Part shown: positions 15,377 to 49,770 of the stretch, in pieces | Layout: the number at the start of each line of letters is the position of its first letter | Position numbering within the stretch: position 1 is the first letter of the stretch | Assembly (NCBI RefSeq): GCF_029855125.1 | Contig: NZ_CP123229.1 | Coordinates: forward strand, 1,426,001 to 1,490,000 | DNA length: 64,000 bases | Direction of reading: 5' to 3' | From: Methylocapsa sp. D3K7 | GTDB taxonomy: Bacteria > Pseudomonadota > Alphaproteobacteria > Rhizobiales > Beijerinckiaceae | Program-made: the position numbers and the translations under genes | Notes under the pieces: generated by a model | Databases searched by the model: none | What the model saw: only the letters and a program-made list of their open reading frames with translations | Told to the model about the DNA's origin: nothing

Positions 15377-15448
15377 CAAGGCCACAAAAATTTTGATGCT
15401 GCAGGTCGACGCTGGACCATGGAAGAGATCGACATGTGCTATGTTATA

Positions 15449-16607
15449 CTAATGGCCCCGCGGGATGACTCATTGAGTGGATTCCCTTGGCGGCGGTTTT
15501 CTGATTCCCTTGGCGCGGAGGATTCGCGCCATGCCATCAGCGGTGAAATTGCGAGAGGACTATTTGGCCAAGGAGCTTCGGGTGTTGGCCCGGCGCTCAA
15601 AGAACGTCAACCAGAGTCGCCGGCTGTTATCGCTGGCGGCAGTGCGGGACGGGATGGATCGGAGGGCGGCGGCCAAGATCGGCGGGATGGATCGGCAGAC
15701 GCTGCGCGACTGGGTCCATCGCTTCAACGCCACCGGGCCAGAGGGCCTCATCGACAACTGGACAGAGGGCCCCGCGCCGCGCCTGTCAGCCGCGCAGTTG
15801 GCCGAGTTCGCGACAATCGTCGAGGCCGGGCCGGATCGTGAGAAGGATGGCGTCGTGCGTTGGCGCCGGGTGGACCTCAGGCGCATCATCGCCGAGAGGT
15901 TCGGCGTCGACTTCCACGAGCGCTACGTTGGAAAGCTTTTGAAGAAGCTCGGCTTCTCGCACATCAGCGCAAGGCCGCGCCATCCAGCCCAGGACGAACA
16001 GATCGTCGAGGCGTTCAAAAAAACTTCCCGCGCGCGCTGAAGGCTCATCTCGACAAACTGCCAGAGACGACGCCGGTCGAAGTCTGGTTCCAGGACGAAG
16101 CCCGGATCGGCCAGAAGAATGGCCTCGTCCGCCAGTGGGCCAGGCGTGGAACGAGGCCAAGGCAGCCCGCCGACCAGCGCTACGACAACGCCTATCTGTT
16201 TGGCGCGATCTGCCCCGCCCGCGGCGTTGGGGCGGCCCTCGCGTTGCCTTATGCGGACACCGGCATGATGCAGCTCCATCTCGACGAAATCTCGCACAAC
16301 GTCGCCAAGGGTGCGCATGCCGTCCTGCTGCTCGACAGGGCCGGATGGCACACCACCAGCCAGCTCAACGTGCCCGAAAACATCACGCCGATCTTCCTGC
16401 CTTCGCGCGCGCCGGAACTGAACCCGGTCGAGAACATCTGGCAGTATCTGCGTCAGAACTGGCTCTCAAACACCGTCTTCGAAAATTACGATGCCATCAT
16501 CGACGCAGCCTGCGCCGCCTGGCGAAAGCTCATAGCCCAGCCTGAAACAATCACATCCATCGGGATGCGAGAATGGGCTCACGTCGGTCAGTCGCTATGA
16601 CCTTTGG
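15449..16607 (+). mobile_element. IS630-family element, copy 1
   Basis: A 1,159-bp element flanked on both sides by TA, the target duplicated by the IS630/Tc1 group. The imperfect terminal inverted repeats begin CTAATGG on the left and end CCTTTGG on the right. It appears identical to copy 2 at 17508-18666 (offset 2,059 bases) over all lines compared by eye, so transposition was recent. It lies between the geranylgeranyl-reductase-like gene and the interrupted membrane-protein gene. Confidence 0.93.
15531..16600 (+). CDS. IS630-family transposase (two frames joined by -1 frameshift), copy 1
   Basis: The first frame (15531-16040, MPSAVKLREDYLAKEL) encodes the helix-turn-helix part and ends after FKKTSRAR. 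The second frame continues as NFPRALKAHLDKLPE with the DDE-superfamily catalytic core: WFQDEARIGQ (first Asp), HAVLLLDRAGWHT (second Asp) and LPSRAPELNPVENIW (Glu). The frames meet at seven A residues (16017-16023), where a -1 slip yields FKKNFP, the sequence expected for the family. This is the known programmed frameshift pattern of many IS630 elements. A GGAGG precedes the ATG at 15531. Confidence 0.9.
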
Positions 16608-16693: not shown

Positions 16694-17505
16694 TTAGCCA
16701 ACTTCCCCCTTAGCGGAAGGTGCGTCCTCATCTGCCTCGCTGACGTTTTCCTGGTTATTGTCCGAACTAATTTCGTGACGGTCGATAACGTTATCCGCGT
16801 CATCCGCGCGGGGCCAAGATTCCGGCCTAAAGGACCGGTGATAAATCGCTCTACGACTCATCGCGGTCCAGAACCGCCGCTGGTCGTCCCCATTCAAAGG
16901 CAACTTATAACCGAGCTTCTTAGCCAAATCTGGCAGGTAACAATCAAAAGCTGCCTTGACCAACGCGCCCCACTCGTCAATTCTTTCGATCGAAAATTTG
17001 TAAGCTGCATTCGCCAGCAGCGCAGCGCAAAGAGCGATAAGTGCAAAAGCTATGCTGTTAGGAGCTAAAATACCTCCGATTTTAGTGACGGGTAGATCGA
17101 ATGGATTATCAACGTATAAACTTAATAAGAATCGGAACGAGGACAACATACATACTAATATTGCAAAATAAATCAAGTTTAGTAAAAAACTAACCTGCGC
17201 TCGAGCGTTTTCAACGGCGGCTTGAAAATCTTTTGGAATCACAGTACATAGGTGAATCCACAGGGCTATACTGTCGGCACCATAAATTCGTCTGGAATAA
17301 TCCTCAAACGCCCGAATAGCGTTTCCAAACCGCGTAGGAAGTATCAATCTTGGCTCAGACGGAAATTCAGCCACAAATTTCCTAAGAAGCTCCTCATATT
17401 GATGCTGGAGCTCATAAGGGAAGTCATCGCCCTCATCTATCCACTGTTGGCGCAGCAGTTCAAGCTGCTGGCTCTTTACTTCGAAGCGACGCTTTTCCCA
17501 ACTTA
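16694..17505 (-). pseudogene. C-terminal part of an IS-interrupted membrane protein gene
   Basis: Reading leftwards from the IS630 copy 2 boundary, the native sequence begins ...SWEKRRFEVKSQQ and continues for about 270 residues. It includes RLILPTRFGNAIRAFEDY, two hydrophobic segments (around VSFLLNLIYFAILVCML and IAFALIALCAALLANAAY) and an acidic tail. The block LPTRxGN...YGxD is familiar from a family of uncharacterised membrane proteins that open with an N-terminal membrane region ending in a ...EGY...P segment. That missing part is found at 19611-19881. An open frame extends into the IS, so a chimeric product is possible but unlikely to work. AT-rich compared with core genes. Confidence 0.8.
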
Positions 17506-17507
17506 TA

Positions 17508-18666
17508 CTAATGGCCCCGCGGGATGACTCATTGAGTGGATTCCCTTGGCGGCGGTTTTCTGATTCCCTTGGCGCGGAGGATTCGCGCCATGCCATCAGC
17601 GGTGAAATTGCGAGAGGACTATTTGGCCAAGGAGCTTCGGGTGTTGGCCCGGCGCTCAAAGAACGTCAACCAGAGTCGCCGGCTGTTATCGCTGGCGGCA
17701 GTGCGGGACGGGATGGATCGGAGGGCGGCGGCCAAGATCGGCGGGATGGATCGGCAGACGCTGCGCGACTGGGTCCATCGCTTCAACGCCACCGGGCCAG
17801 AGGGCCTCATCGACAACTGGACAGAGGGCCCCGCGCCGCGCCTGTCAGCCGCGCAGTTGGCCGAGTTCGCGACAATCGTCGAGGCCGGGCCGGATCGTGA
17901 GAAGGATGGCGTCGTGCGTTGGCGCCGGGTGGACCTCAGGCGCATCATCGCCGAGAGGTTCGGCGTCGACTTCCACGAGCGCTACGTTGGAAAGCTTTTG
18001 AAGAAGCTCGGCTTCTCGCACATCAGCGCAAGGCCGCGCCATCCAGCCCAGGACGAACAGATCGTCGAGGCGTTCAAAAAAACTTCCCGCGCGCGCTGAA
18101 GGCTCATCTCGACAAACTGCCAGAGACGACGCCGGTCGAAGTCTGGTTCCAGGACGAAGCCCGGATCGGCCAGAAGAATGGCCTCGTCCGCCAGTGGGCC
18201 AGGCGTGGAACGAGGCCAAGGCAGCCCGCCGACCAGCGCTACGACAACGCCTATCTGTTTGGCGCGATCTGCCCCGCCCGCGGCGTTGGGGCGGCCCTCG
18301 CGTTGCCTTATGCGGACACCGGCATGATGCAGCTCCATCTCGACGAAATCTCGCACAACGTCGCCAAGGGTGCGCATGCCGTCCTGCTGCTCGACAGGGC
18401 CGGATGGCACACCACCAGCCAGCTCAACGTGCCCGAAAACATCACGCCGATCTTCCTGCCTTCGCGCGCGCCGGAACTGAACCCGGTCGAGAACATCTGG
18501 CAGTATCTGCGTCAGAACTGGCTCTCAAACACCGTCTTCGAAAATTACGATGCCATCATCGACGCAGCCTGCGCCGCCTGGCGAAAGCTCATAGCCCAGC
18601 CTGAAACAATCACATCCATCGGGATGCGAGAATGGGCTCACGTCGGTCAGTCGCTATGACCTTTGG
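17508..18666 (+). mobile_element. IS630-family element, copy 2
   Basis: Second copy of the 1,159-bp IS630 element, with TA at both edges (17506-17507 and 18667-18668). It sits inside the membrane-protein gene that continues at 16694-17505, and its right edge is only five bases from an IS5 element at 18672. Orientation is the same as copy 1, so the pair forms direct repeats that could recombine and delete the intervening gene fragment. Confidence 0.93.
17590..18659 (+). CDS. IS630-family transposase (-1 frameshift), copy 2
   Basis: Same as copy 1: helix-turn-helix frame from 17590 to 18099, then the DDE catalytic frame to 18659. The two are joined at the A7 run at 18076-18082. Both frames translate identically to those of copy 1, so the element is probably still functional. 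Confidence 0.9.
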
Positions 18667-23974: not shown

Positions 23975-24442
23975 ATGAGTGCGCCGGTCAAGCCGATCCC
24001 CGAAGGCCATGAAGGGGCCATCCCCTATCTCAGCGTCAGCCACGGCAGCGAAGCCATCGCATTTTACAAAGAGGCGTTCGGCGCCAAGGAGGTGCTTTGC
24101 ATCGCGCATGAGGGAAAGGTCGGACACGCCGAGCTTGAAATCGGCGCCGCCCGCATCATGCTCTGCGACGAATTTCCCGACCATGACGCCTTGAGCCCGC
24201 AAACGATTGGCGGGACGCCCGTGATGATCCACCTTTATGTCACCGACGTCGATACGTTCACGGCCCGCGCGGTCGACGCGGGCTTGCGGGTTCTCCGGCC
24301 GGTGGAAGACCAGTTCTATGGCGATCGCGGCGGCAAGTTCGAGGATCCCTTTGGGCATCGCTGGTGGATCGCCACCCGCAAGGAAGATATTCCCCTCGAG
24401 GACCTGAAGCGGCGCGCGGAGGCCTTATTTGGCGCGGCCTGA
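23975..24442 (+). CDS. VOC-superfamily (glyoxalase/PhnB-like) protein
   Basis: A 155-residue protein of the vicinal-oxygen-chelate fold. It shows paired beta-alpha-beta-beta-beta modules: PYLSVSHGSEAIAFYKEAFGA and the second module with YGDRGGKFEDPFGHRWWIATR. The closest type is the PhnB/DUF1428-like group of unknown substrate. Conserved His and Glu residues could bind a metal. The ATG at 23975 follows GAGGGA; a GTG one codon upstream is less likely. It is divergent from mutY. Confidence 0.85.
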   Translation: MSAPVKPIPEGHEGAIPYLSVSHGSEAIAFYKEAFGAKEVLCIAHEGKVGHAELEIGAARIMLCDEFPDHDALSPQTIGGTPVMIHLYVTDVDTFTARAVDAGLRVLRPVEDQFYGDRGGKFEDPFGHRWWIATRKEDIPLEDLKRRAEALFGAA

Positions 24443-24483
24443 AGCCTGTTGCTGCCGCGGGCTAAGATAAGTATTCTCGGCTA

Positions 24484-24990
24484 ATGCGGAAAAATCGCCC
24501 CGGCAAAAACTCTTGGTCCCAGCCACTTGCAGAGTTCGTGCATACCGCGATCGGCCCGGTCGCCGCACGTCAAGGTTTCGGCCAGAGTGATCTGTTCTTG
24601 TTCTGGGAGGCCATCGCCGGCGAGCGGCTCGCCGCGATCTCGCAACCGGTCAAATTGCAATGGCCATCCCGGCGGCAGGAACACGCAGCAGACAACGGCA
24701 CCGCGCCGGCCACTCTCATCATTCGCGTCGAGAGCGGCTTCGCGCTTGAGATGCAACATCTCGCTCCCGTGATCATCGAGCGGGTGAATGCTCATTTCGG
24801 CTGGCGCTGCGTCGCGCGGATTGCGTTGAAACAAGGTCCCCTCGAGGCACGCCCCCCTGCCCGACGGGCGGCCCGCGTGCCAGATAAGGGTGCCGAGATG
24901 GCGGCGGAAGCGCTCGCCGGCGGGATCACGGAGGCGCCGTTGCGGGAGGCCTTGACGCGGCTCGGCGCCCGCGTTCTCGCGGGCCCGTAA
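24484..24990 (+). CDS. DciA-like protein (DUF721)
   Basis: A 168-residue basic protein with the DUF721 core: FGQSDLFLFWEAIAGERLAAIS, VRVESGFALEMQHLAPVIIERVN and GWRCVARIALKQGP in blocks. DUF721 includes DciA, which loads the replicative helicase DnaB in bacteria lacking DnaC. In alphaproteobacteria a DUF721 gene is commonly next to mutY, as here. A parS site lies 20 bases beyond the stop. DciA function is inferred from the family. Confidence 0.8.
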   Translation: MRKNRPGKNSWSQPLAEFVHTAIGPVAARQGFGQSDLFLFWEAIAGERLAAISQPVKLQWPSRRQEHAADNGTAPATLIIRVESGFALEMQHLAPVIIERVNAHFGWRCVARIALKQGPLEARPPARRAARVPDKGAEMAAEALAGGITEAPLREALTRLGARVLAGP

Positions 24991-25008
24991 CTCCACAGTT
25001 TGGCGGTG

Positions 25009-25052
25009 CAATCGTACCAAAATGTTTCACGTGAAACATTTTGGTACGATTG
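25009..25052. other. parS centromere site in a 44-bp perfect palindrome
   Basis: The 16-bp core TGTTTCACGTGAAACA at 25023-25038 is the canonical ParB-binding parS sequence. The symmetry continues outwards for 14 bases on each side without mismatch, giving a 44-bp perfect palindrome. It lies between dciA and the DUF167 gene. ParB loads here to form the partition complex, normally near the replication origin. Confidence 0.93.
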
Positions 25053-25136
25053 GACAGGCAAAACCGGCCAAAGCTCCGGACATGGGCGGCCTTCAATTCA
25101 GGACAATCACGCGGAAATTTTGTCTATTGGGCAGTT

Positions 25137-25484
25137 TTAAAAATGCCCGCCGCCAGAAGACAAGCGGGTCAGACCCGCCGCCAAGGTTCCGGCCTCCCCT
25201 TGCAGATGCAGCACCTTCAACCGGCCACTCGCGCCGGAGTCGAGCCGCACCGCGCTGGGGGACATGTGAAGTGCCTTGGCGAGAAGCCGGATTAGCGCCG
25301 CATTGGCCTCGCCGTCCTGCGGAACCGCCCGTACCTTTACCTTCAACACCGGCCGGCCATCGGAAAGGTGTTCGACGCCGCCAATTTGGTCGAGAGCGCT
25401 TTTGGGGGTCAGGCGAACAGTCAAGAGGAGGCCGTCGCCCCGCAGGGTCCATGGAACCTCGTTTGAGACGAGGTTAGAAGACAT
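25137..25484 (-). CDS. DUF167 (YggU-family) protein
   Basis: A 115-residue protein of the YggU/DUF167 family. The motifs LTPKSALDQIGG, VKVRAVPQDGEANAALIRLLAKAL and VRLDSGASGRLKVLHL are characteristic. Function is unknown. It is translationally linked to the upstream yggT gene (11-base overlap), the standard YggT-YggU pairing in proteobacteria. Confidence 0.9.
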   Translation of the reverse strand: MSSNLVSNEVPWTLRGDGLLLTVRLTPKSALDQIGGVEHLSDGRPVLKVKVRAVPQDGEANAALIRLLAKALHMSPSAVRLDSGASGRLKVLHLQGEAGTLAAGLTRLSSGGGHF

Positions 25485-25764
25485 TGGGATAAATATATTC
25501 CTCGATGACGCGCTGGAGGAAGAAGATCAGCAGCAGCAAAATAACCGGCGAAATATCGATGCCGCCAAAACTCGGTATTGTGTTCCGGATCGGCCGGAGC
25601 AATGGTTCCGTCAATGCGGTCACGAGATTCCAAATCGAGCGCACGACGTCATTGTAGCGGTTGACGACATTGAACGCGACAAGCCACGAGAGGATCGCCG
25701 AGGCAATAATCACGTAAACATAAAGCTGTAGAACGACTAAAAGCACGTCGAGAACTGCACGCAT
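25474..25764 (-). CDS. YggT-family integral membrane protein
   Basis: A 96-residue inner-membrane protein with two hydrophobic segments (VLLVVLQLYVYVIIASAIL and PVILLLLIFFLQRVI) around the YggT block FNVVNRYNDVV...ALTEPLLRPIRNTIP. The ATG at 25764 (MRAVLDVLL) is chosen over an in-frame start 23 codons upstream. Proposed roles include osmotic tolerance and membrane organisation near the divisome; nothing specific can be read here. Confidence 0.9.
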   Translation of the reverse strand: MRAVLDVLLVVLQLYVYVIIASAILSWLVAFNVVNRYNDVVRSIWNLVTALTEPLLRPIRNTIPSFGGIDISPVILLLLIFFLQRVIEEYIYPNVF

Positions 25765-25977
25765 TGGAACTCCGAACCGTTGCCAAGAACACGCTCGTTT
25801 ACGCGGCCTGGACCAGGCTGGCAAGTCCGGCAAAGAACTTCCAAAACGCGAGCGGCGGCCGGCGATTGAGTCTGGTCAACATCGTGCTCACGATGAAATT
25901 GGACCGGCTTGTGCCAGAGCCCCCCTAGGCCGAGCCCACTTGCATGCGCTTTTCCAGTCGCGTAAACAGCGGCTCGG

Positions 25978-26053
25978 GGGGCTGTAGCTCAGATGGGAGA
26001 GCGCTGCAATCGCACTGCAGAGGTCAGGGGTTCGATTCCCCTCAGCTCCACCA
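25978..26053 (+). tRNA. tRNA-Ala (anticodon CGC)
   Basis: A 76-base cloverleaf. The acceptor stem is GGGGCTG paired with CAGCTCC (one G-U), with a D-arm TAGCTCAGA..., an anticodon stem CTGCA/TGCAG around the loop ATCGCAC (anticodon CGC), a T-arm with GGTTCGATTCC, and an encoded CCA end. It reads alanine GCG codons. The sequence beyond it carries IS elements and few genes, so this could be an integration hot spot, though I see no integrase and no repeated 3' end. Confidence 0.97.
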
Positions 26054-46667: not shown

Positions 46668-48170
46668 CTAATACCGCTCCGGCAGGCTTTCTTCCGGGGC
46701 AAGGTTGGCGAAGCGCGTCATCTCCGCTTCAAAGGCGAGCTCGATGGTGCCGGTCGGGCCATGCCGTTGCTTGCCGATGATGATTTCGGCCTTGCCATGT
46801 GCCCGTTCCATGTCGGCCTGCCAGGCAATGAATTCCTCGCTTCCCTCGCGGGGTTGCCTGTTGTTCAAATAATATTCTTCGCGGAAGACAAACAGGACGA
46901 CATCGGCATCCTGTTCGATCGAGCCGGATTCGCGCAAGTCGGAGAGTTGCGGGCGCTTGTCGTCGCGGTTTTCCACCTGCCGCGACAATTGCGAGAGGGC
47001 GATGACCGGAACGTTCAAATCCTTGGCCAATGCCTTGAGGCCCGTGGTGATCTCTGTCACTTCTTGGACCCGGCTGTCGCTTCGCGTTTTCGAGCCGCCG
47101 AGCAATTGCAGATAGTCGATGACCAAAACATCGAGGCCGCGCTGACGTTTGAGCCGCCGCGCCCGCGCCGCCAATTGGGCGATCGAAAGACCGCCGCTCT
47201 GGTCGATGTAGAAAGGAATCGTCTGCATTTCCCTAGCGGCTTCGACGATCCGGTGAAATTCGGGCTCGCTGATGTCGCCGCGCCGGATCTTGTAGGAGGC
47301 GACCGCTGCCTGCTCGGCGATGATGCGGGTTGCCAATTGTTCGGCCGACATTTCCAGCGAGAAGAACCCGACAACCCCGCCATTGACCGTTTCGGCCGTG
47401 CCATCGGGCTTTGAGCGGAACTGATAATTGCGCGCGACATTGAAGGCGATGTTGGTCGCCAGCGCCGTCTTGCCCATGCCGGGACGCCCGGCAACGATCA
47501 CGAGATCCGACGCCTGCAGGCCGCCCATTTTCGCATCGAGATCCTTAAAGCCCGTCGCGATGCCGGAAAGTTTCCCGTCCCGTTCATAGGCCTTCGCGGC
47601 CATATCGACAGCGATGGTCAGCGCCTCCGAGAATCGCTGGAAGCCGCCTTCGTAGCGGCCGGTCTCTGCCACCGAATAGAGCTTGCGCTCGGCCTCCTCG
47701 ATTTGTTCGCGCGGGCTATTGCCGACGGGCGCGTCATAGGCCGCGTTGACGATATCCTCGCCGATCAGGATCAAATCGCGGCGAAGCGCGAGATCGTGAA
47801 TGGTGCGGCCATAGTCCTCGGCGTTGATGATTGTCGTCGCCTCGGCGGCGAGGCGGGCCAGATATTGCGGCACGGTTACGCCGCCAAGATCATGCTCGCC
47901 CAGAAACGTCTTCAATGTAATGGGCGAGGCAAGCTTTCCCGCGCGAATGAGTTGCGCTGCGACATCGAAAATCCGCCGGTGCAGTTCCTCCGAAAAATGC
48001 TCGGCTTTGAGAAAATCGGAGATCCGGTCGAAAGCGTCATTGTTGACGAGGATCGCGCCCAGCAGCGCCTGCTCCGCCTCGACATTGTGCGGCGCCAAAC
48101 GAAACGTGGGATCAGGCTCCGTGGCGGTCGCGAAGCGGGTCCTCGCAGGAAGATTGTCGATGGCTGGCAT
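46668..48170 (-). CDS. dnaB: Replicative DNA helicase DnaB
   Basis: Hexameric helicase of the replication fork. With the start at ATG 48170 it has 500 residues: the N-terminal domain (PHNVEAEQALLGAIL), then the RecA-like domain with Walker A GRPGMGKTALATNIA, LDVLVIDYLQLL (Walker B) and QLSRQVENRDDKRPQLSDLRE in blocks. The frame continues 11 codons upstream, but 48170 fits the family. The usual rpsF-rpsR-rplI genes are not upstream here; a parS site and a transporter gene are. Confidence 0.96.
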   Translation of the reverse strand: MPAIDNLPARTRFATATEPDPTFRLAPHNVEAEQALLGAILVNNDAFDRISDFLKAEHFSEELHRRIFDVAAQLIRAGKLASPITLKTFLGEHDLGGVTVPQYLARLAAEATTIINAEDYGRTIHDLALRRDLILIGEDIVNAAYDAPVGNSPREQIEEAERKLYSVAETGRYEGGFQRFSEALTIAVDMAAKAYERDGKLSGIATGFKDLDAKMGGLQASDLVIVAGRPGMGKTALATNIAFNVARNYQFRSKPDGTAETVNGGVVGFFSLEMSAEQLATRIIAEQAAVASYKIRRGDISEPEFHRIVEAAREMQTIPFYIDQSGGLSIAQLAARARRLKRQRGLDVLVIDYLQLLGGSKTRSDSRVQEVTEITTGLKALAKDLNVPVIALSQLSRQVENRDDKRPQLSDLRESGSIEQDADVVLFVFREEYYLNNRQPREGSEEFIAWQADMERAHGKAEIIIGKQRHGPTGTIELAFEAEMTRFANLAPEESLPERY

Positions 48171-48409
48171 AGTGTTTCCCGAACGGCGCCGATGGCCCGG
48201 CATGTGCCGAATCAGTTCATGACATGCTCTTCTTGTGGCACGCCGAAGCGGCGAAAAGGAGGAAATTTTTGGTCAGTCCGCCCCCGGTCCCGCTATCCAC
48301 ATACCCAAAAAATTTTCAAAAAAATTTGGCTGGACGGGACTCGCAGTTAGATGCTGGCAAATATTTTGAGGGCAGCCGTCACGCGATTTCTTTGACCGAT
48401 TTCGCGGCC

Positions 48410-48453
48410 CAATCGGACAATAACGTTTCACGTGAAACGTTTTGGTACGATTG
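48410..48453. other. Second parS site with extended imperfect palindrome
   Basis: The core CGTTTCACGTGAAACG at 48424-48439 matches the 14-bp parS consensus GTTTCACGTGAAAC exactly. The flanks pair for a total of 44 bases with three mismatches per arm, and the right flank is nearly the same as that of the first site (TTTTGGTACGATTG). It lies in the 417-base gap between dnaB and the DMT transporter gene; nothing else is seen in that gap apart from AT-rich sequence just upstream of dnaB. Confidence 0.9.
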
Positions 48454-48587: not shown

Positions 48588-49640
48588 TCACTGTGAGTGC
48601 TTATGGCCATGCCGGTGATGGAGATCGGGATAGTGGGGGTGCCGGTGCACGAGCGGCTTATGCTGGTGCCAATGGCTGTGCGGCTCGCCTTGCGGGTCGC
48701 TCGGCAGATGCGGGTGCTTATGGTGCGCATCATGGGTGTGCCGATGTTCATGCTCTAGCGCTTCGTGCGCATGTTCATGCTCGTGGCGTTCCGTGAGATG
48801 CAGCCATAGACCGGCCACCATCAAACTGCCCGCCGCGACCAGTCGAACCGTTAACGGCTCGTCAAGCAGAAACAGCGAGAGCAACGCGCCGATGAACGGG
48901 GCGAGCGAGAAATAGGCTCCCGTGCGCGCCGTCCCAAGATACCGCAGGCCGAGCACGAACAGGGCGAGGCTCACCCCGTAGCCGAGAAAGCCGACGACGC
49001 CGGCAGCGAGAATGGTGCCGGTGTCAGGCAATGCGGCGCCTTGCGCCAAGGCGAGCGTCAGGTTCACCGTCCCGGCGACCAGCCCCTTTATCATGGCGAT
49101 TTGTACCGGATCGGCCGATGAAAGCTTGCGGGTCAAGTTGTTGTCGATGCCCCACGACACGCACGCGGCGGCGATCAACAACGCCCCCCAATCGAGGGAC
49201 GCCCCGCCCTGCCATGACAACAGCGCCGCCCCCGACAGAATGGCGAACGCGCCGAGCAGCAAGCGGCGGTCCACGTATTCACGAAAGACCACCCAGGCAA
49301 TGCCCATCGTGGCCACGCCTTCGAGATTGAGCAACAGCGATGCCCCTGCGGCATCGGTGCGAGCCAGACCGAACATCAGAAACACGGGCCCGACAATGCC
49401 GCCCGCCACAATGACAGCGGCCAGCCAAGGCACATCCCCGCGGCGCAGCGGAGCTTCAACGGCCGGAACCCGCAAAGCTTTTCGAGAAATGTGCACAACG
49501 GCGAGGCCGAGCCCTGCACCAAGATAAAGCAACCCTGCCATCGTCCACGGATCGACGCTGCCCAGCACGATCTTTGCCAAGGGGGTGCTCGCGCCGAAGA
49601 GAGCGGCCGATAAGAGGGCGAGAAGAACACCGGTTTTCAT
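48588..49640 (-). CDS. EamA/DMT-family transporter with histidine-rich C-terminal tail
   Basis: A 350-residue membrane protein with about ten hydrophobic segments arranged as two EamA repeats (LLALLSAALFGASTPLAKIV; YFSLAPFIGALLSLFLLDEP). The last ~65 residues are hydrophilic, with 24 histidines mostly in H-x-H patterns. The EamA family exports metabolites; a His-rich tail normally binds divalent metals, so metal efflux or metal-regulated export is possible. ATG 49640 (MKTGVLLALL) is preferred over ATG 49658. No metal regulator is nearby. Confidence 0.87.
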   Translation of the reverse strand: MKTGVLLALLSAALFGASTPLAKIVLGSVDPWTMAGLLYLGAGLGLAVVHISRKALRVPAVEAPLRRGDVPWLAAVIVAGGIVGPVFLMFGLARTDAAGASLLLNLEGVATMGIAWVVFREYVDRRLLLGAFAILSGAALLSWQGGASLDWGALLIAAACVSWGIDNNLTRKLSSADPVQIAMIKGLVAGTVNLTLALAQGAALPDTGTILAAGVVGFLGYGVSLALFVLGLRYLGTARTGAYFSLAPFIGALLSLFLLDEPLTVRLVAAGSLMVAGLWLHLTERHEHEHAHEALEHEHRHTHDAHHKHPHLPSDPQGEPHSHWHQHKPLVHRHPHYPDLHHRHGHKHSQ

Positions 49641-49770
49641 GCGCCGATCCAAGCACACTTCGCATTGCCTGTCCCGAAGTACGAATAAGCAGGAGGCACG
49701 AAAATTGTCTTTGGGGCGGGATCTTTTGTTCGGTTGGGCGAGATATGACTTCTGGGAGCTGGCCCGCTAT

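Follow-up and report, generated by a model that had tools for sequence, protein, structure and literature searches.

The perfect 44-bp palindrome at positions 25009-25052 of the window (the whole 64,000-nucleotide stretch of Methylocapsa sp. D3K7 DNA analysed here, part of a single 4,151,390-bp contig) is one copy of a repeat that has an exact parS core and is dispersed round the chromosome. Judging from sequence comparisons, we put at roughly 60% the probability that this family is an inherited mosaic repeat whose core is a true parS, offering ParB dozens of extra putative loading sites. Its parts, parS and mosaic repeats, are of known kinds. What appears to be new is a parS-cored repeat in dozens of copies, at places shared by species. 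No description of dispersed parS repeats was met in the literature searched, which was covered mostly at the level of titles and abstracts and lay outside the main parS survey (Livny et al. 2007).

The palindrome is as exact as an earlier note on this DNA had claimed, being identical to its own reverse complement at 44 of 44 bases. Its central 16-mer, TGTTTCACGTGAAACA at 25023-25038, is a parS palindrome with no mismatch to the consensus TGTTNCACGTGNAACA. Symmetry ends at the edges of the element, where the next base is G on each side, and 22 matching pairs at one given position would arise by chance with a probability of about 1e-13. The element sits between a convergent pair of genes, one of the DciA family and one of the DUF167 family, and a second copy of the repeat lies further along the window (see table). 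Elsewhere in the window, two identical 300-base stretches (15444-15743 and 17503-17802, 2059 bases apart) each start one of two similar sets of open reading frames. The one frame tested from the first set encodes a DDE_3 transposase domain, and the two stretches are probably two copies of one insertion sequence.

Table. Coordinates within the window of the two repeat copies, their parts and the neighbouring genes.
Feature	Position	Strand	Remarks
Perfect palindrome, a member of the dispersed family with a parS core	25009..25052		44 bp
parS core GTTTCACGTGAAAC	25024..25037		14 bp; 61 exact copies in the genome
Left arm CAATCGTACCAAAAT	25009..25023		TAC type, the commonest inner arm of the family
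Right arm	25038..25052		Mirror of the left arm; both are the same variant
Weak outer box AAAACCGGCCAAAG	25060..25073		Type II outer module (our own classification, one mismatch allowed)
DciA-family gene	24484..24990	+	3' end toward the element, 18 bp from its edge
DUF167 (YggU) gene	25137..25484	-	3' end toward the element, 84 bp from its edge
Second repeat copy	48410..48453		Unequal arms; core at 48425-48438
EamA transporter gene	48588..49658	-	3' end 134 bp from the second copy, which lies downstream
DnaB replicative helicase gene	46668..48203	-	Other neighbour of the second copy; 5' end toward the copy

The 14-bp core occurs in 61 exact copies in the D3K7 genome (labelled G000 in our genome set), where about 0.009 would be expected from composition at an assumed 59% GC, and the reversed control pattern has no copies. 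Two of the 61 lie 3.5-3.8 kb from parB and appear to adjoin mnmG, which, like parA and the other origin-region genes, we named from our own reading of the sequence; the other 59 are spread round the chromosome. The suggestions of the earlier note (cruciform extrusion, a second binding protein or a lineage-specific preference of ParB) can be cast as an account in which the palindrome is a single origin-type parS with an extra symmetric flank. The conservation of the flanks across the family would fit that account, but 61 copies refute it as an explanation of a single site. The window site is moreover not origin-proximal, lying about 0.77 Mb from parB, its arms do not covary, and by eye none of 20 parS sites in 11 non-expanded genomes (five of the genus, six of other genera) carries the arms. 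We consider the account very improbable.

Alignment of the copies reveals a 44-bp unit with sharp edges, CAATCGTACCAAAAY-GTTTCACGTGAAAC-RTTTTGGTACGATTG, and weaker outer boxes near -30 and +40. Between positions -15 and +28, conservation among the 61 copies is mostly 1-2 bits (minimum 0.63), and it falls just outside. When one mismatch is allowed, recognised arms flank 57 of the 59 dispersed copies on both sides and the remaining two on one side. A search with the arms alone, blind to the core and permitting 6-34 bases between them, returned 39 copies in the D3K7 genome, with identical spacing in all and the exact core in 38. The main inner arm variants are of the TAC, TCC and TAA types. At the two parB-adjacent sites the full arms are absent; what these sites and the repeat have in common is AAAAAC-core-ACTTTGG, which may reflect a short flank preference of ParB. 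These two sites also carry, by eye, a TTAGAAT-N-ATTCTAA-like module on one side. Several D3K7 copies with outer halves of type II or I show, beyond the outer box, a further palindrome-like stretch, CTGATG...CATCAG or similar.

The proposal that the outer symmetry is conserved stands in one part and falls in the other, for the arms are indeed conserved beyond the 16-mer while the symmetry itself is not kept. Within a copy the two arms pair at a mean of 12.02 of 15 positions, compared with 12.11 when arms are reshuffled between copies. The window copy is one of four perfect palindromes among the 59 dispersed copies, against 5.75 expected from chance pairing of arm variants, and the symmetry itself is therefore not selected. 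Directly next to the core, the first pair of flanking bases is symmetric in 23 of 59 copies, if anything a lower number than the 30.9 expected (Fisher p 0.054). As far as the shuffle test shows, then, the arms of the repeat are conserved and the symmetry of any single copy is unselected; the perfect symmetry at 25009-25052 is best read as having no function of its own. The same lack of excess pairing speaks against selection for a cruciform or a long hairpin, and the cruciform extrusion put forward in the earlier note thus gains no support. The outer modules were also considered as hairpins and set aside, because box types are mixed within a half (inner CC with outer I in 10 and II in 6; inner AA with I in 6 and II in 4) and, judging from these counts, pairing is apparently not kept. 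A second protein may read the arms.

The dispersed copies are uniform in their distance from parB (KS p 0.49), with 25 on one side and 34 on the other. The origin was placed from parB and a weak GC skew; over the stretches fetched, this skew is in no more than loose agreement with an origin at 2.1-2.7 Mb. The gap between dispersed copies in which parB lies measures 407 kb (uncorrected p 0.02 for a gap that includes a fixed point, from one genome), which hints weakly at an origin zone free of them. The antipode of parB, at about 0.145 Mb and the presumed terminus, has copies nearby at 101271 and 109639. Genes were predicted by a simple codon-score caller, which left 6 of 58 copies with a called neighbour on one side only. 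One dispersed copy falls within a predicted gene, and 35 of the other 58 lie at most 60 bp from the facing 3' end of a gene; for intergenic positions drawn at random in the window, the share is 11.2% (p 3e-19). In 44 of the 58 the closest gene end is a 3' end (control 54%), and neighbours are convergent at 23 (control 21.7%).

Such positions would be natural for a bidirectional terminator or a stabiliser of mRNA 3' ends, in which AAAA-GTTTCACGTGAAAC-TTTT would give an A-tract, hairpin and T-tract in RNA of either strand, just after stop codons. Besides the proximity to 3' ends and the convergent neighbours, both resting on a crude gene caller, the stable fold of the window copy as RNA of either strand (z, flanks included, -7.0 and -6.3) argues for such a role. 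However, the long stem is not kept and the arms lack covariation, the second window copy folds less well (-16.6 vs -28.2 kcal/mol), the 25009-25052 site is absent from the result of a consensus terminator scan, and a terminator would have no need of one fixed 14-base sequence. A search of Rfam with window positions 24000-26000 gave nothing over the gathering score, the best match being to a microRNA family at 25.4 bits against a required 80. Taken as the reason for the repeat, termination seems to us quite improbable.

Within the genus, only some genomes are expanded. Among its 15 genomes, six have 14-61 exact cores and nine have exactly two; in the five two-core genomes with listed positions, both cores lie less than 5 kb from parB. 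The arms pattern was found in 5 of the 15, all of them core-expanded. A further 45 genomes of the family and order have 0-5 cores each, and 10 of 385 genomes across the class, D3K7 included, have at least 10. The sixth expanded genome of the genus, G012, has 47 cores and no such arm pair; in most of the copies read there, inspection by eye shows the core between a family arm and a TTAGAAT-N-ATTCTAA-like module. The copies fetched from four relatives covered part of their cores: 27 of 47 for G012, 6 of 14 for G010, and some of the total for both G003 and G005. In a ParB tree, the four expanded genomes included are grouped together by a branch whose support is 100/100; the tree leaves out the ParB pieces of G005, and G012, a 77% complete assembly, gave no ParB match. 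Six copies in G005 (contigs C174, C329, C448, C487, C490 and C571) have NN inside the palindrome. The repeat thus seems to break short-read assembly, and copy counts from metagenome-assembled genomes are therefore probably low.

Some other genomes of the class also have many cores. G290, an alphaproteobacterium of 1.8 Mb, has 79 exact parS cores on several contigs, many of them closely clustered, including an array at 37-bp spacing; near-parS variants stand between the cores in the stretch read. Its flanks are unlike those of the D3K7 repeat, and independent amplification is therefore probable. G430 and G352, which belong to the same genus as each other, have 19 and 12 cores. In the two stretches of G430 that were read, the spacing of the cores is 33-34 bp, and palindromic flanks, varying from copy to copy, surround at least three of them (GGT..ACC, GACT..AGTC, GAGT..ACTC), as if a stem were kept. 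G271 (2.8 Mb) has 18 cores; the six with listed positions are scattered within the initial 1.1 Mb of a single contig, and all five copies read are without D3K7-type arms.

Many copies have the same neighbouring gene in different species. In five relatives, 38 of 113 copies adjoin, in the same orientation, a gene that matches the neighbour of a D3K7 copy (21 of 42 in G006, 9 of 19 in G005, 6 of 19 in G003, 1 of 6 in G010 and 1 of 27 in G012). These matches come from one-way tblastn against the fetched D3K7 stretches, not from reciprocal best hits, and identity in the weakest few is as low as 38%; by a rough estimate from about 118 flanking genes out of perhaps 3,900, a few per cent would be expected by chance. 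Together they cover 27 of the 61 D3K7 sites, or 26 of 59 when the one site beside parB is left out. The copy at 25009-25052 also has a counterpart in G006, which follows a dciA of 74% identity at a distance of about 50 bp; on its other side, the 1.5 kb fetched from that genome did not contain the DUF167 gene. Arms at the shared places tend to follow the species, being TACCAAA in D3K7 and often GGACAAA in G006 and G005. Most of the relatives' copies were found through the core, so the core identity in this ortholog comparison is partly ascertained.

In a reciprocal test of core and arm constancy over five genomes, copies with an intact core but altered arms numbered 82, and those with intact arms but an altered core 13 (pooled p ~6e-9). 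These counts were taken by hand after subtraction of two presumed origin sites for each genome, and the contrast is inflated by the counting of alternative arm modules as changed arms. The core changes less than the arms in each of the five genomes; p is about 1e-4 in D3K7 and G006 and 0.04 in G010, and the test is not significant in G003 (p 0.17) and G005 (p 0.08). Among the 96 arm-selected copies free of N (a condition that removed 6 of the 24 arm matches of G005), the core is changed in 13, including 6 of 18 in G003, two of which have deletions. The core thus looks constrained, but not absolutely.

The main alternative is that the family is a selfish or neutral interspersed repeat, of the REP/REPIN or mosaic-element type, that carries a parS core to which ParB may bind without benefit. 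Shared descent, gene conversion or the mode of spread would then account for the uniform core, and the position after genes would be what remains once insertions that harm genes and promoters have been filtered out. Its arms are modular and exchangeable, and at shared places they tend to differ by species as they would under gene conversion or renewed spread. The decay of the core in 13 of 96 arm-selected copies points the same way, as do the placement of copies after genes and the presence of just two cores in 9 of the 15 genus genomes. On the other hand, the core changes less than the arms in the pooled test, and the places look old, since half of the G006 copies (21 of 42) share a neighbour with a D3K7 copy. 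Nor was a transposase found tied to the repeat in the loci inspected, and searches of plasmid, phage and viral collections turned up no carrier of the arms. We regard a purely selfish or neutral origin as rather unlikely.

With its 59 dispersed copies, one of them called inside a predicted gene, the family has the character of REPIN-like extragenic palindromes. Y1_Tnp matches, IS200-like by our own reading, occur in 3 of the 15 genus genomes (D3K7, G003 and G006), that is, in three of the six with the repeat and in none of the nine without it. However, of the five Y1_Tnp loci inspected out of six, four have neither core nor arm motif and one has a weak arm match. A RAYT-driven REPIN is thus not supported, as no RAYT gene flanked by the repeat was found in these loci. 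Transposon ends were rejected: what lies between two copies spaced 1.67 kb from each other is a permease-like gene (our own reading), not a transposase. In the plasmid and phage collections, the latter judged from 20 of 24 records, no record among the matches listed covered 80% of the 52-bp query, and matches reached no further than 23-25 bp round the core; among viral contigs there was no exact match to the core plus short arms. Among phages, four small genomes from rodent samples (H11 and H22-H24, 4.6-5.8 kb) have an exact match of 23-24 bp to AAATGTTTCACGTGAAACATTTT, a parS-like palindrome in small phages that are not expected to need partition.

The protein predicted to use the copies is conventional. 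A ParB-family profile gives one match over the cut-off in the D3K7 genome, the ParB encoded at 2220048-2220947, whose motifs for CTP and DNA binding are the same as in the non-expanded relatives. Alignment to the solved Caulobacter ParB places R and G at the equivalents of R173 and G201, the residues that distinguish a parS-reading ParB from Noc (PMC7383237). Since this is a canonical ParB with parS-type specificity residues, its binding to the copies is to be predicted. Two weaker family matches apparently join a ParB-type N domain to a DNA-methylase part, by our own reading. The special ParB preference suggested earlier finds little to recommend it, given the canonical ParB, the two parB-adjacent sites without full arms, and the retention of the core with a different one-side module, by eye, in most of the G012 copies read.

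The copies might alternatively be bound by a Noc-like protein distinct from ParB, with a DNA specificity that resembles parS. Noc sites are not known to occur near the terminus, whereas two D3K7 copies lie near the antipode of parB, where the terminus is presumed to be. With a single ParB-family match over the cut-off, the genome offers no candidate gene for such a protein, and a Noc paralogue was rejected when the genome profile search found no second ParB with Noc-type residues. The wide scatter of the copies round the chromosome does resemble that of Noc sites in Bacillus (PMC4331003). Even so, a Noc-like reader strikes us as very unlikely.

A parS is thought to work when it is confined near the origin. 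In the mosaic-repeat reading that we favor, the 44-bp unit, with looser outer modules to about 82 bp, would have spread in an ancestor of one Methylocapsa/USC-alpha clade and would then have been inherited at many of the same places. The single ParB would likely nucleate at the copies as it does at any parS, which would provide about 59 auxiliary loading sites away from the origin. Less firmly, the core may have been kept because ParB binding helps, through organisation of the nucleoid or through retention of ParB or SMC along the chromosome arms. Alternatively, it is conceivable that the copies are tolerated, each of them being a single site after a gene.

The mosaic-repeat reading also faces difficulties. 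In Caulobacter, a member of the same class, an extra parS cluster is strongly disfavoured in mid-arm but is tolerated near the terminus at +1800 kb (PMC5815017). Many working mid-arm sites should therefore be costly, and if the analogy holds, the lineage must either pay this cost or avoid it. Moreover, 9 of the 15 genus genomes do without the repeat. A more ambitious version of the reading, which we advance as possible but doubtful, is that this lineage of methane-oxidising Alphaproteobacteria would use ParB-parS as a genome-wide chromosome organiser, with a repeat, kept at fixed post-gene places in several species, loading ParB, and perhaps SMC, on both arms, and with an origin zone of about 0.4 Mb free of such sites that would protect the true centromere. 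Whatever the mechanism, 59 exact cores round the chromosome mean that the rule of origin-confined parS is broken, or that the action of ParB has changed (in amount, spreading, or coupling to division or SMC), or that the repeat has spread against a strong potential cost. The occurrence of many copies beside the same gene in sister species is not predicted by current rules of chromosome segregation, and the nine two-core genomes of the genus are natural controls.

The D3K7 family can be compared with several known systems. With the chromosomal parS of ParABS it shares the exact 14-bp core, a canonical ParB and two copies less than 4 kb from parB, but it differs in the 59 further copies that lie round the chromosome inside a repeat. 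The intergenic mosaic elements of Alphaproteobacteria (RIME/ABC type) are dispersed and consist of exchangeable modules; by description alone, they resemble our repeat in modules, intergenic place and dispersal, and differ in that ours has a parS core. REPINs and REP elements with RAYT (PMC3116915) are likewise short, palindromic, dispersed, extragenic and present in many copies, whereas the D3K7 repeat has no RAYT tied to it in the inspected loci, has parS as its core, often occupies places common to species, and does not keep a long stem by covariation. The Noc-binding sites of Bacillus (PMC4331003) are also palindromic sites of a ParB-family protein scattered round the chromosome, a use that is putative in D3K7, where the sites are parS and not NBS, no Noc paralogue was found, and copies occur near the presumed terminus. 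Finally, the half-parS binding described for Pseudomonas aeruginosa ParB (PMC7022226) likewise brings ParB to many places off the origin, as predicted for D3K7. However, the sites in P. aeruginosa are 7-base halves, whereas those at which we predict binding in D3K7 are full palindromic sites inside a repeat.
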